38,047 nucleotides of DNA from Candidatus Eiseniibacteriota bacterium (GTDB lineage: Bacteria; Eisenbacteria; RBG-16-71-46), in NCBI GenBank assembly GCA_016215625.1, contig JACRIW010000068.1, positions 1 through 38,047 of the forward strand, in the 5' to 3' direction. Of this stretch, positions 11,377-36,291 are shown piece after piece. How positions within the stretch are numbered: the first letter of the stretch is position 1; each line of letters starts with the position of its first letter. The notes beneath the pieces were generated by a model, which saw only the letters and a list, made by a program, of their open reading frames with translations, searched no databases and had not been told where the DNA came from. A program made the position numbers and the translations under genes.

Positions 11377-11401
11377 TGGAGTTCCCAGGATTCAGTGGAC
11401 A
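11377..11401. repeat. Left terminal inverted repeat of IS3-type element
   Basis: This 25-bp end pairs with 12344-12368 with four mismatches, all in the central six bases. It overlaps the stop codon of the transposase gene. Confidence 0.8.
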
Positions 11402-12315
11402 CCCTGGGGCCGCACCTTATGGGCATCTTCGAACTGCTCGGGGCTCACACCCCCAAGATGCCCGTGGCGGCGTGAGCGATTGTAGAACGCCACGATGTAG
11501 TCGGCCACGTCAGCTCTAGCCAGTTCGCGATTCTTGTAGATCTGCTTCTTGATCCGCTCCTTCTTCAGGCTGCCGAAGAAGGACTCCACAACCGCGTTGT
11601 CCCAGCAGTTGCCCTTGCGGCTCATGCTCGGCTCGAGATGGTTCGAGAGGCAAAAGCGCCGCCATGCATCACTGCCGAACTGCGTGCCCTGATCCGAGTG
11701 CATGATCGTGCCGCGGGGCCGCCGACGCCGCACTGCCATTAGGACGGCGTCGAGCACGAGCTCGCGGTGAATCGTAGGGCGCGTGGACCAGCCGACGATC
11801 TTGCGCGAGAACAGATCCATGACGACGGCGAGAAACAGCCAGCCCTGCCAGGTCCGGATGTAGGTGATGTCGGTCACCCACGCCTTGTTCGGACGCGTCA
11901 CAGTAAACTGCCGCTTGAGCAGGTTCGGCACGAGGACGGCCGGCTTGCCGACAGACCAGCGCCGGGTACGGTAGCCATGCAAGGCGCGCATCCTGTTCTC
12001 GCGCATGAGCCGCGCGACGCGATGCTTGCTGCACGTCTCCCCGGCCTCGCGGAGGTCGAGGAATACGCGCGGCGCGCCGTAGACGCCTTGGCTCGCTTCG
12101 AACGAAGCGCGGATCAGGCGAAGAAGTCGGGCGTCTTCTTGGGCCCGGTTCGATACCGGCTGCTTCAGCCACTCGTAATAGCCGCTCGAAGCAACACCGA
12201 GCAGGCGGCACATCCTCTGGACGCTGTGCACTTCGCTATTGGCCTTGATGAACTCGTACGTCTGGCGAACTCGACCGGCAATCGGCTGCGTGGACACATG
12301 CGTGGACATGGGCAT
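11392..12315 (-). CDS. IS3 family OrfB-type transposase
   Basis: Protein of 307 aa with the HTH_21 segment near the N-terminus (MCRLLGVASSGYYEWLKQP) and an rve integrase core. The DDE triad is visible: Asp in AWVTDITYIRT, Asp in MHSDQGTQFGS and Glu in NAVVESFFGSLKKE. The C-terminal YIVAFYNRSRRHGHLGGVSPEQFE is typical of the family. It starts at ATG behind GGGAGG, and a TAG lies in frame six codons upstream, so it cannot be made as an OrfAB frameshift product from this copy. Intact catalytic residues, but without OrfA transposition activity is doubtful unless helped in trans. Confidence 0.9.
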   Translation of the reverse strand: MPMSTHVSTQPIAGRVRQTYEFIKANSEVHSVQRMCRLLGVASSGYYEWLKQPVSNRAQEDARLLRLIRASFEASQGVYGAPRVFLDLREAGETCSKHRVARLMRENRMRALHGYRTRRWSVGKPAVLVPNLLKRQFTVTRPNKAWVTDITYIRTWQGWLFLAVVMDLFSRKIVGWSTRPTIHRELVLDAVLMAVRRRRPRGTIMHSDQGTQFGSDAWRRFCLSNHLEPSMSRKGNCWDNAVVESFFGSLKKERIKKQIYKNRELARADVADYIVAFYNRSRRHGHLGGVSPEQFEDAHKVRPQGVH

Positions 12316-15773: not shown

Positions 15774-16415
15774 CTACCAGCCGGCGGGTTTGTGGATGAG
15801 GCGGCCTGATTGGGTCATGAGCGGCGTCGGGAGTTGGCAGCGGCCGTAGTGCTCGGCTGTGAGTTTGAAGTGGGCGGATGCCGCGAGCTTCAATTCGTCG
15901 CTGTGCCTTGCGTAGGGGAATCCGGCAATGACCCGTCTCGATGGGAACAGCCGTCGCGCCGTGCGCACGGCAGGTGCGAGGTCAGAGTCGCCGCTCACGA
16001 GCACAACCGCTTCGCACCGGTCCTCGAAGAAGCACTCGAGCATCGTGGTCGCGATCGCGACGTCCGTCTCCTTCTCTTCGTACTGAACGGTTCGTGCAAA
16101 GCACTTTGAGCAGTGGTGTGGGCGGCGCTTGAAGTGTCCAAGCTCGACCTCGACTCCGAGCGCGAGCATGGCATCGAGGTATCGTGAGTGGCGTTCAATG
16201 GTGCCCGGGCTGGTGCCTTCGCGATGTCGCGCCAACGCGCTGAAGAGAACCACTCGACTCAGTTCTGCCTGTCCACCGACGATGCTGAGCAGACCTTGGC
16301 AGAGGCGAGGAAGGTCGAGCCACTTCGTGCTCGATCCGCCCGTGCGCAAGCGAGCAGCGCAAAGTGAGTGGTAGAGGTTGAAGCCATCCACGAGGAAGAC
16401 CGTTCGTGTGCTCAT
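15774..16415 (-). CDS. NYN-domain (LabA/PIN-like) ribonuclease, copy 1
   Basis: Protein of 213 aa filling one NYN domain. The acidic residues of the PIN-like active site are all present: Asp in FLVDGFNLYHSL (start), Asp in YEEKETDVAIA and Asp-x-Asp in VLVSGDSDLAPA. A CSKC pair precedes the ETDV motif, as in many NYN proteins. The protein ends in KPAGW; the paralogue at 35662 ends in RPPGW. I chose the ATG at 16415 because the NYN fold begins eight residues later; upstream sequence is occupied by a terminator hairpin. NYN proteins are predicted metal-dependent endoribonucleases. Two small RNA units in tandem stand directly upstream and their last terminator ends 22 nt before the start codon, so the gene depends on read-through or on an unseen start site. 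Confidence 0.88.
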   Translation of the reverse strand: MSTRTVFLVDGFNLYHSLCAARLRTGGSSTKWLDLPRLCQGLLSIVGGQAELSRVVLFSALARHREGTSPGTIERHSRYLDAMLALGVEVELGHFKRRPHHCSKCFARTVQYEEKETDVAIATTMLECFFEDRCEAVVLVSGDSDLAPAVRTARRLFPSRRVIAGFPYARHSDELKLAASAHFKLTAEHYGRCQLPTPLMTQSGRLIHKPAGW

Positions 16416-16437: not shown

Positions 16438-16501
16438 AAGAAAAATCCCCCGGGCCGCAACCACGGGGGGGGCCGGGGAGCTGTCGCTCCATCGGCGGGG
16501 T
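16438..16501 (-). ncRNA. Candidate small RNA unit A (proximal to NYN copy 1)
   Basis: About 64 nt from a predicted start at 16501 to the T-run at 16445-16438. Hairpin 1 (16495-16473) is a three-pair base CCG/CGG, a bulged A, a mismatch, five pairs and a GACA tetraloop. Hairpin 2 (16469-16447) is CCCCCG/CGGGGG followed by ATTTTTCTT, an intrinsic terminator. Same plan as units C and B, with different stem sequences. The terminator ends 22 nt before the NYN start codon. Confidence 0.65.
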
Positions 16502-16507
16502 ACGGGG

Positions 16508-16536
16508 AATATCGGCGGCGGCATTTGCGATCGCAA
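16508..16536 (-). promoter_or_regulatory. Promoter of small RNA unit A
   Basis: TTGCGA (16536-16531), 17 nt, then GATATT (16513-16508). Spacing is ideal for a housekeeping sigma factor, and the same -10 and the same 17-nt spacing occur in unit B. Confidence 0.6.
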
Positions 16537-16581
16537 GTCAAGAATCGCGCATGAACTCGAGAAGGCCATGACGGCGAGGCA

Positions 16582-16644
16582 AAGAAAAACCCCCGGATCG
16601 CAACCCGGGGGGGCCGTGGAGCCGAAGCCCCAACGGGGATGATT
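16582..16644 (-). ncRNA. Candidate small RNA unit C (distal to NYN copy 1)
   Basis: About 63 nt. Hairpin 1 (16636-16614) has base CCG/CGG, a bulged U, then six pairs closed by a cUUCGg tetraloop. Hairpin 2 (16611-16590) is CCCCCGG/CCGGGGG followed by TTTTTCTTT, an intrinsic terminator. Tandem with unit A, 143 bp apart start to start, in the same direction. Confidence 0.65.
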
Positions 16645-16650
16645 GCGGAC

Positions 16651-16680
16651 AATATCGGCCGAGCTCGGCTGACGAGTAAA
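16651..16680 (-). promoter_or_regulatory. Promoter of small RNA unit C
   Basis: TTTACT (16680-16675), 18 nt, then GATATT (16656-16651), the -10 shared by all three units. Confidence 0.5.
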
Positions 16681-16693
16681 CGCTGAAAATGCG

Positions 16694-16729
16694 TCGGCCC
16701 CGCGCGGATCACCGTCCGCACGGGGCCGA
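16694..16729 (-). terminator. Terminator of the transporter-TPM-DUF2911 operon
   Basis: Stem TCGGCCCCG/CGGGGCCGA continued, after one mismatch, by GCGGA/TCCGC around a 6-nt loop; TTTT follows three bases later on the minus strand. It separates this operon from the small RNA units. Confidence 0.75.
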
Positions 16730-16732
16730 TTT

Positions 16733-16775
16733 GCGCATCGCGCGCATCGCGCGCGTCGCGCGCGTCGCGCGCGTC
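16733..16775. repeat. 9-bp tandem repeat in 3' flank of DUF2911 gene
   Basis: Five consecutive copies (the first incomplete) of GCGCGCRTC, the last three identical. They lie between the stop codon of the DUF2911 gene and its terminator. Probably slippage-prone simple sequence. Confidence 0.75.
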
Positions 16776-16784
16776 GCCGCCGCT

Positions 16785-35530: not shown

Positions 35531-35559
35531 TTGCACAGGATCGGAGCGGCGCCGATATT
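35531..35559 (+). promoter_or_regulatory. Promoter of small RNA unit B
   Basis: TTGCAC (35531-35536), exactly 17 nt, then GATATT (35554-35559). Same -10 and spacing as unit A, on the opposite side of the window. Confidence 0.6.
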
Positions 35560-35565
35560 CCCAGC

Positions 35566-35637
35566 ACCACGCCATCCGGTCCCGTCAGGGCTCGGTGGCT
35601 CCCCCCGAGGTTACCGACCTCGGGGGATCTTTTTTTT
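35566..35637 (+). ncRNA. Candidate small RNA unit B (upstream of NYN copy 2)
   Basis: About 72 nt. Hairpin 1 (35572-35598) has base CCA/TGG, a bulged U, four pairs (one G-U), a mismatch, three pairs and a GTCA tetraloop. Hairpin 2 (35602-35626) is a perfect 10-bp stem CCCCCGAGGT/ACCTCGGGGG with loop TACCG, then ATCTTTTTTTT: an excellent intrinsic terminator. It ends 24 nt before the NYN start codon. Confidence 0.7.
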
Positions 35638-35661: not shown

Positions 35662-36291
35662 TTGCGCGTCTCATTCCTCGTCGATGGCTTCAACCTCTAC
35701 CACTCGCTTTCGAGAGCGAGTGACGAAGGGGTGCGCTGTAAGTGGCTCGATGTCGGCGCCCTCTGTCGTTCCCTGCTACCCGACCTCGGCCGAGCGGCAC
35801 GGCTGCGCTCCGTCACCTTCTTCACGGCTTCCCCGAATCACGTCGAGGTACGGAGCCCCGGGGCGGTGGTCCGGCACCGGGAGTACGTTTCCGCTCTGGC
35901 CGCGTACGGTGTCGTGGCGGAACTCGGTCGCTTCAAGGCGCGCGTGCGACGATGCTCTTGCTGCGGAGAGGCATTCGAGTCGCACGAAGAGAAGGAGACG
36001 GACGTCGCGATCGCGGTGCGCATGATGTCGCTGCTCTGGCATCACGACTGCGACGCAATCGTTCTCGTCAGCGCTGACGGGGATCTTGTTCCTGCCATCC
36101 GCGAGGCGCGGCAGTGCTTTCCCAGGGTGCCGATCTACTGCGCCTTCCCTTTCGGGCGTGGCAGTCACGATCTTCGGGCCATCGCCTCGGGCGTCATCCG
36201 GCTGCGCCGCGATCGCTACGCCGCGCATCAGTTGCCGGACCTGGTCGTTCTCCCCGACGGCTCCACAGCCCGCCGCCCGCCCGGCTGGTGA
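35662..36291 (+). CDS. NYN-domain (LabA/PIN-like) ribonuclease, copy 2
   Basis: I place the start at TTG 35662, ten bases after GGGGAG, because the fold begins at once with RVSFLVDGFNLYHSL and everything upstream is the terminator of small RNA unit B. This gives 209 aa, close to the 213 of copy 1. Active-site acids: Asp in LVDGFN, in HEEKETDVAIA and in VLVSADGDLVPA (SGDSDL in copy 1). A CSCC cluster precedes ETDV, and the protein ends RPPGW. By eye the two paralogues share somewhat under half their residues, so they are old duplicates or separate acquisitions, yet both keep the same RNA unit in front. Predicted metal-dependent endoribonuclease. No terminator with a T-run follows. Confidence 0.85.
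   Translation: MRVSFLVDGFNLYHSLSRASDEGVRCKWLDVGALCRSLLPDLGRAARLRSVTFFTASPNHVEVRSPGAVVRHREYVSALAAYGVVAELGRFKARVRRCSCCGEAFESHEEKETDVAIAVRMMSLLWHHDCDAIVLVSADGDLVPAIREARQCFPRVPIYCAFPFGRGSHDLRAIASGVIRLRRDRYAAHQLPDLVVLPDGSTARRPPGW

Follow-up and report, generated by a model that had tools for sequence, protein, structure and literature searches.

A covarying two-hairpin RNA element upstream of NYN/HEC-09 ribonuclease genes: a candidate partner of type III-like antitoxin character

Introduction

A contig of Candidatus Eiseniibacteriota (JACRIW010000068.1, positions 1 to 38,047; this whole stretch of 38,047 nt is called the window below) carries two short tandem units directly upstream of a gene for a predicted NYN-domain ribonuclease. 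The question raised by this locus is whether the units are small RNA genes in their own right and, if so, what they have to do with the ribonuclease. An earlier note, written from the sequence alone, had described them as small-RNA units tied to the NYN gene; a covariance search and the association with NYN genes now support that description, the transcripts themselves being predicted. Numbers beginning with G, C and L are our own labels for genomes, contigs and loci, respectively.

The units of the window

The two minus-strand units contain everything that had been claimed for them, i.e. promoter-like boxes, a bulged hairpin, a terminator hairpin and a T-run. The distal unit, U2 (16581..16644, minus), follows the predicted promoter TTTACT-18-GATATT (16651..16680, minus; TTTACT at 16680-16675, GATATT at 16656-16651, spacer 18 nt) and consists of a bulged 23-nt hairpin 1 (16636-16614) with a UUCG loop and a G/C terminator hairpin (16611-16590) with a UUGCGA loop and a T-run behind it. 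In U1 (16438..16501, minus), which lies nearer to the ribonuclease gene, the predicted promoter is TTGCGA-17-GATATT (16508..16536, minus; TTGCGA at 16536-16531, GATATT at 16513-16508, spacer 17 nt), hairpin 1 (16496-16472) has a GACA loop, so the difference between the two loops is as described, and the terminator hairpin (16469-16447) again ends in a T-run. Both promoters were read from the sequence and entered the promoter scan described below, and folding supports the hairpins of both units. A third unit, U3 (35566..35637, plus), has the predicted promoter TTGCAC-17-GATATT (35531..35559, plus), read from the sequence, a folded hairpin 1 (35571-35599) and a terminator hairpin (35602-35626) followed by a T-run. 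The predicted RNA start was taken as the A located 7 nt past the -10 box in all three units; counted from there, U1 and U2 would each give an RNA of about 62-64 nt, in line with the 64 nt first suggested, and U3 one of about 70 nt.

U2 and U1 lie between the NYN start codon (16415) and a hairpin with a short T-run that stands 3' of the upstream, DUF2911-like gene. This hairpin is formed by the inverted repeat at 16694-16729, and the placement between the terminator of the upstream operon and the NYN start codon is thereby confirmed. Just 3' of the same gene, at 16733-16777, there are four overlapping 18-nt copies with a spacing of 9.

We built a covariance model, R1, on 35 units aligned by sequence, none of them from Eisenbacteria. 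R1 matches all three window units over their full length (U2: 16650-16581, 65.9 bits, E 6.4e-15; U1: 16509-16438, 36.4 bits, E 2.2e-7; U3: 35558-35635, 27.4 bits, E 4.5e-5), which puts them beyond chance, and the sole other match in the window is partial (E 0.31). The whole genome (4.23 Mb) contains only four matches at E <= 1, namely U2 and U1 before NYN1, U3, and a fourth unit, U4, in front of a third NYN gene (L003, contig C19). The scores of U3 and U4 are low (27-30 bits), and the UCAUC tract discussed below is absent from the units nearest to NYN in this genome (U1, U3 and U4). Searched for by sequence pattern only, the terminator core gives 3 matches in the window against 1.4 expected, which is insignificant; the significance of the units thus comes from sequence and structure jointly, and from the relatives, rather than from the terminator core.

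Transposase-like ORFs, recognised by eye and much alike, are found at both contig ends (39-1136 and 37705-38028, both minus), so that the contig was probably cut short at a copy of an insertion sequence. A further transposase-like ORF (by eye) is at 11392-12315 (minus).

Conservation and structure of the RNA

The layout of the unit in the relatives is as follows: promoter-like boxes, (A)AUCAUCCC, hairpin 1, 2-3 nt, a second, G/C-rich hairpin whose loop is UURCGA, a T-run and the NYN start. RNAalifold predicts 17 base pairs for the 35 units, 12 of which are changed on both sides. The earlier note had left it to a covariance search in relatives whether hairpin 1 is conserved; it is kept, both sides being changed in all 8 of its pairs, as compared to 4 of 9 in hairpin 2, and three pairs are invariant. 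In the alignment 94.9% of the cells are paired, both-side changes occur in 79 cells as opposed to 20.0 in shuffled alignments (0 of 500 as high), and the covariation score is 0.485 versus 0.214 for the shuffles and at most 0.158 for slid partners. Measured against these controls, both helices are supported.

Conservation extends to the unpaired 5' tract. Its UCAUC is kept at 81-99% per position in the 86 of 90 units that were picked for having at least 4 of the 6 tract letters. In U2 and in consensus-like relatives, an RNA beginning at the predicted start would open at or just before UCAUCC. A guide RNA was considered and rejected, as this unpaired tract is conserved. A mimic of the tRNA T-arm, suggested by the likeness of the UURCGAY loop to a T-loop, was dropped, since a UNCG-type tetraloop closed by a U-A pair fits better.

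The architecture had been thought to be absent from described RNA families, and the Rfam searches agree: at the gathering score no family covers the units in the window or in 18 other loci. A permissive search of two unit regions gave hits far below the cut-offs, the abiF RNA family (RF03085) not being among them.

The NYN proteins

NYN1 (15774..16415, minus) is a predicted NYN-domain ribonuclease of 213 aa (Pfam NYN E 5e-10; PADLOC HEC-09 E 9.9e-49). NYN2 (35662..36291, plus; TTG start codon assumed) is another (Pfam NYN E 2e-10; HEC-09 E 3e-44), 44% identical to NYN1 in the alignment, and PF01936 (NYN) is the only Pfam match of either protein at E <= 0.001, above the cut-off. The genome contains three close NYN genes and one weak partial match (E 4.8e-4). 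Among solved structures the NYN profile finds a single, weak match, the NYN protein 2QIP (E 2.6e-4). Residues D10, N13, E114, D118, D143 and D145 are invariant across 83 aligned NYN sequences, L071 and L084 being set aside for their in-frame stops, and these invariant acidic residues together with N13 fit a prediction that the protein is an active NYN ribonuclease. In the accessible part of a study on a CRISPR-associated NYN protein, RNA cleavage requires the first aspartate (PMC11346440).

All 83 NYN proteins scanned match the PADLOC model of the candidate defence gene HEC-09 (PDLC04163). HEC stands for Hma-embedded candidate for defence (PMC12988326, accessible text), and in the one paper that we found naming HEC-09, as far as its accessible text goes, the gene correlates with phage susceptibility and not with resistance (PMC12447246). 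This link counts against reading the RNA-NYN pair as antiphage. The neighbouring ORFs (83 of 172 scanned) include matches to PDC-S01 in three cases and, once each, to models of PglZ, AbiEi, PtuA and methylases, among 25 of 169 PADLOC families listed, and PemK toxins in two, among 25 of 87 Pfam families listed; having no control set, these counts give presence and not enrichment.

Association with NYN genes across lineages

Relatives were collected with an alignment of the genome's three NYN proteins, which gave the best 80 of 427 reference-genome relatives listed, plus 44 viral-contig loci. Of the 80 best reference loci, 79 carry an R1 unit no further than 200 nt upstream of NYN, and so do 44 of the 45 that were not in the seed, so the association with NYN genes that was to be looked for in relatives is indeed found. 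The exception is L066 (Truepera), in which the unit is about 850 nt away and on the opposite strand. Going by the record titles of these 80 loci, NYN genes with the element in front are spread over about twenty phylum-level groups or more: Eisenbacteria, Gemmatimonadota, Omnitrophota, Chloroflexota, Cyanobacteria, Acidobacteria, Delta-/Desulfobacteria, Nitrospiraceae, Chlorobiaceae, Bacteroidetes, Kryptoniota, Verrucomicrobia, Lentisphaerae, Planctomycetota, Armatimonadetes, Actinomycetota, Spirochaetia, Fibrobacter, Elusimicrobiota, KSB1, Neomarinimicrobiota and others. Note that the records are mostly metagenome bins, and single lineage assignments may be wrong. R1 also matches at E < 0.01 in 20 of the 44 viral-contig loci, several of which are near-copies (L110-L118 and L121 are near-copies of one another).

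The converse question is whether the element occurs apart from NYN. In 47 genomes of the phylum R1 has 18 matches in 10 genomes (with stricter filters, which missed U4), and none of the 18 stands away from NYN: 14 adjoin an NYN match, some of these genes being damaged, and four adjoin NYN remnants (G021:C397, G028:C26, G023:C749 and G001:C90). In 30 genomes of other lineages, picked for carrying NYN, 31 of 37 R1 matches are located at most 200 nt upstream of NYN; the six others are four in G069 (one at a contig end), L066 and a solo unit near L024. Seen from the protein side, 29 of 37 long NYN matches in these 30 genomes have an R1 unit, and the remaining eight are three weak or displaced cases (L066, L080, L099) and five distant paralogues, four of which carry another hairpin-plus-T structure, as judged by eye.

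A few single loci are worth recording. G069, a Thermoleophilia bin and the genome of L079, has 8 R1 units and 13 NYN matches, several of them broken. In L086, at 2353-2937, a HicB-like ORF (by eye) separates two units upstream of NYN. An Acido-Lenti-1 RNA (RF01687) is found close to the NYN locus of a Bacteroidetes bin (L026, 4826-4870, minus). In L259 and L261 the NYN paralogue is preceded by a branched terminator-like hairpin (CCCCG..GCCGCAAGGC..CGGGG), not by two separate hairpins.

Promoter-like and terminator sequences

A fixed distance between -10 box and UCAUC gave a smeared profile, and a scan with variable spacing was therefore used; it set aside one short row and eight rows of seven loci (six second copies and one C508 locus, L018). 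TTGAC occurs in 65 of 90 upstream regions, as opposed to 3.7 in shuffled ones, and a two-box promoter score of at least 9.5 is reached by 38 of 90 units versus a mean of 0.9 after shuffling. The window units score only 8, a level that 15 of 90 shuffled regions reach on average.

A terminator scan that is separate from R1 finds a terminator before NYN in 77 of 80 reference loci, compared to 40 of 242 control genes. There is one unit per terminator, and tandem units (in the window, G021:C42 and L091) each have a terminator hairpin of their own. With start codons set by rule, the distance from the terminator stem to the NYN start codon has a median of 22 nt and is 14 nt or less in 19 of 80 pairs, in which the 3' strand of the terminator would be the nearest possible ribosome-binding site.

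Presence, absence and decay at fixed sites

The site next to the DUF2911-like gene can be followed through related genomes. The order in the window, U2-U1-NYN1, is kept in G021:C42, in which the neighbour is 70% identical and the units score 53.3 and 49.3 bits. In G021:C397 the neighbour is 71% identical, and there is a single unit (71.8 bits) and only the start of an NYN gene. The neighbour is present in G020 and G022 too (50-53%), with no unit at this site and no NYN match in either genome. U2 and the C397 unit are 90% identical and the preceding 60 nt, including the promoter, 68%, whereas the 60 nt on the 3' side are 49% identical, i.e. at the shuffled level (46%). The NYN remnant of C397, which is the start of the gene, is recognised by 56 nt of DNA that match the corresponding position in G021:C42 (86%, E 8e-16); its protein match is at E 0.008, there being too few codons for a strong one. 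Remnants downstream of the units at G028:C26, G023:C749 and G001:C90 were found by tblastn at E 4e-17, 5e-13 and 1e-9, respectively.

A second site lies next to an acyl-CoA dehydrogenase-like gene. In G021:C508 the neighbouring region is 92% identical over 1293 nt, but a 276-nt match over the unit and the NYN start is only 73% identical, and the NYN gene is without the middle segment that bears the EKxxD motif, while the unit still folds. In G023 the neighbour is present (88%) with no unit within 1.5 kb. The RNA is thus kept while NYN has decayed in G021:C397, G021:C508, G028, G023 and G001, and the NYN genes of L071 and L084 have one in-frame stop each next to a good unit. A single stop in a metagenome bin may reflect an error in the sequence, and the solo RNAs could be recent leftovers. 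Taken together, these comparisons and the in-frame stops suggest that the module comes and goes at fixed sites, and that the protein often fails first.

Comparison with known systems

It is instructive to compare the RNA-NYN pair to AbiF and its RNA. According to the accessible text of PMC12373285, the prophage-borne AbiF/RCd22 system of C. difficile places a structured RNA directly before a ribonuclease gene; the RNA has a promoter and a Rho-independent terminator of its own, read-through yields the toxin mRNA, and the RNA was shown to inhibit the protein. The pair described here shares, on sequence grounds, the structured RNA, the promoter-like boxes and the terminator directly before a predicted ribonuclease gene. 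There are differences as well: AbiF is a HEPN-type Abi_2 ribonuclease (PMC12373285), whereas Pfam gives only NYN in NYN1 and NYN2, with no HEPN Abi_2 domain; and the RCd22 motif, as described in the accessible text, sits upstream of the terminator hairpin, whereas here the terminator is the second conserved hairpin. RF03085, the abiF RNA, has no match at the gathering score in the window and 18 other loci.

The type III toxin-antitoxin systems (ToxIN, AbiQ, TenpIN, CptIN) likewise have the order RNA gene, terminator, toxin gene (PMC12373285, accessible text), which is also the order seen here. In the same source their toxins are related and a single transcript carries short repeats in tandem, while here each unit has promoter-like and terminator sequences of its own and the protein is NYN; Pfam gives PF01936 only for NYN1 and NYN2, and no kin of ToxN, AbiQ, TenpN or CptN. 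The toxin family is not fixed in type III systems, since AvcID, called a type III system in the accessible literature, departs from the classical families with a deaminase toxin. By analogy, the RNA-NYN pair may work like a type III system, although we do not count it a member, as a tandem-repeat transcript and a classical toxin family are absent.

HECs are described as single-gene candidates, with no RNA partner named in the accessible parts of PMC12988326 and PMC12447246. The CRISPR-associated NYN of B. fragilis, a demonstrated ribonuclease, shares the NYN domain with conserved aspartates; it differs in being CRISPR-associated and in having no upstream RNA unit described in the accessible text (PMC11346440). 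Our literature search found no description of a type III or RNA-antitoxin system based on an NYN or PIN-like enzyme. In layout, in pattern of decay and in mobility the pair resembles RNA antitoxin systems, most of all AbiF with abiF RNA.

Function of the RNA

We think it likely, with a probability of about 0.6, that the conserved two-hairpin RNA of some 62-70 nt predicted here binds and inhibits the downstream NYN ribonuclease, as part of a type III-like antitoxin-toxin (antiphage) pair. The support in hand is the covarying structure, the site upstream of NYN/HEC-09, the promoter- and terminator-like sequences, the decay of NYN with the RNA kept, the presence or absence at a fixed chromosomal site, and the carriage by viral contigs (and, for distant NYN kin, by small plasmids). 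On the best reading, a new RNA family and an NYN effector work together like AbiF and abiF RNA. One promoter would give mostly the short RNA, as the second hairpin is presumably an intrinsic terminator, and occasional read-through would produce the NYN mRNA. The excess RNA would hold NYN inactive; should transcription fail, as on phage infection or plasmid loss, the RNA would decay first and the ribonuclease would be freed. In the tandem arrangement, U2 could be a second copy of the RNA that acts in trans.

The position and the terminator of the unit could also be explained if it were a cis-acting leader and had no separate RNA function, i.e. an attenuator whose terminator, perhaps with a sequestered ribosome-binding site, limits or autoregulates NYN. 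The median of 22 nt before the start codon and the 19 of 80 pairs with gaps of 14 nt or less, in which the hairpin strand is the nearest possible ribosome-binding site, speak for such a leader, and termination with read-through is a part of the antitoxin reading as well. However, hairpin 1 and the 5' tract are conserved past the needs of termination, U2 has promoter-like and terminator sequences of its own before U1 in a two-unit layout that is kept in G021:C42, and units are kept at C397 and other sites where NYN no longer works, and we therefore regard a mere leader as unlikely. Still less probable, in our opinion, is an RNA that activates or directs the ribonuclease as its substrate, scaffold or cofactor, even though the close pairing of RNA and predicted ribonuclease would suit it and a CRISPR-associated NYN has been proposed to trim crRNA (PMC11346440, accessible text): we see no variable guide segment, the unpaired 5' tract being conserved among the 86 units picked for it, and an RNA retained beside a broken NYN fits an antitoxin better.

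Finally, the units might be mobile or repeated elements that merely travel with NYN, or what looks like an RNA family might be a set of ordinary terminators. Presence and absence at the same site within a genus, several units per genome (8 in G069) and the 6 of 37 cross-lineage matches away from NYN point in this direction, but hairpin 1 covaries, orientation and place are constant in 79 of 80 loci, and 18 of 18 matches in the phylum are beside NYN or its remnants, which makes this explanation very improbable.

Further RNA classes on viral contigs and plasmids

The combination of NYN and an upstream terminator extends beyond the reach of R1. A terminator precedes the NYN relatives of viral contigs in 40 of 41 cases, versus 26 of 138 control genes (L104, L132 and L142, with too little upstream sequence, are not counted), and in 20 of the 21 viral loci that have no R1 unit. 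By tblastn, 355 plasmid records contain distant NYN genes; some of these plasmids, from E. coli and Klebsiella, have only 3.5-5.7 kb. In regions from 14 of these records R1 gives no match that convinces, yet a terminator precedes NYN in 11 of the 14, compared to 6 of 26 control genes. A second RNA class, with a loop AUUCAGUU or AUUAAGUU and a strong terminator, precedes the distant NYN of proteobacterial plasmids and viral contigs. Its alignment contains 11 sequences from upstream of NYN, to which plasmids contribute five and viral contigs six, including two from a further scan (L163, L167, L171, L174, L175, L135, L136, L139, L141, L178, L179). UCAUCC occurs near the 5' end of two of them as well, L167 and L175, and no Rfam family covers the unit in any of the five that were scanned.

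We tentatively extend the antitoxin reading, at somewhat less than even odds, to a superfamily of RNA-leashed toxins, in which the NYN/HEC-09 ribonucleases would have a co-diversified small RNA in each clade, and orphan units such as U2 would be trans antitoxins that outlive or pre-empt a toxin. Class A (UCAUCC, UURCGA loop) would then span the bacterial phyla, class B (AUUCAGUU loop) would belong to proteobacterial phages and plasmids, and further hairpin types would complete the set. Within class A the distances between the RNAs are correlated with those between the NYN proteins (Mantel r 0.43, a value reached in 0 of 2000 permutations; 4 of 79 loci, having no 180-aa open frame, were set aside), which is also expected from simple linkage.

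If the antitoxin reading is true, genes that are labelled only 'NYN domain-containing' or 'LabA/DUF88' would gain a partner and a mechanism; a protein search gives 1771 related protein clusters as the scale of such genes, next to the 355 plasmid records. A new enzyme type would be added to the ribonucleases held by RNA antitoxins, HEC-09 would gain a missing component, tests of the protein alone having perhaps lacked the RNA, and an RNA family of about 65 nt would be available whose structure and specificity are open to direct testing in E. coli. On four small E. coli plasmids (L162, L168, L169, L170) NYN is close to a match to RNAI of ColE1-type replicons, a setting suited to plasmid maintenance.
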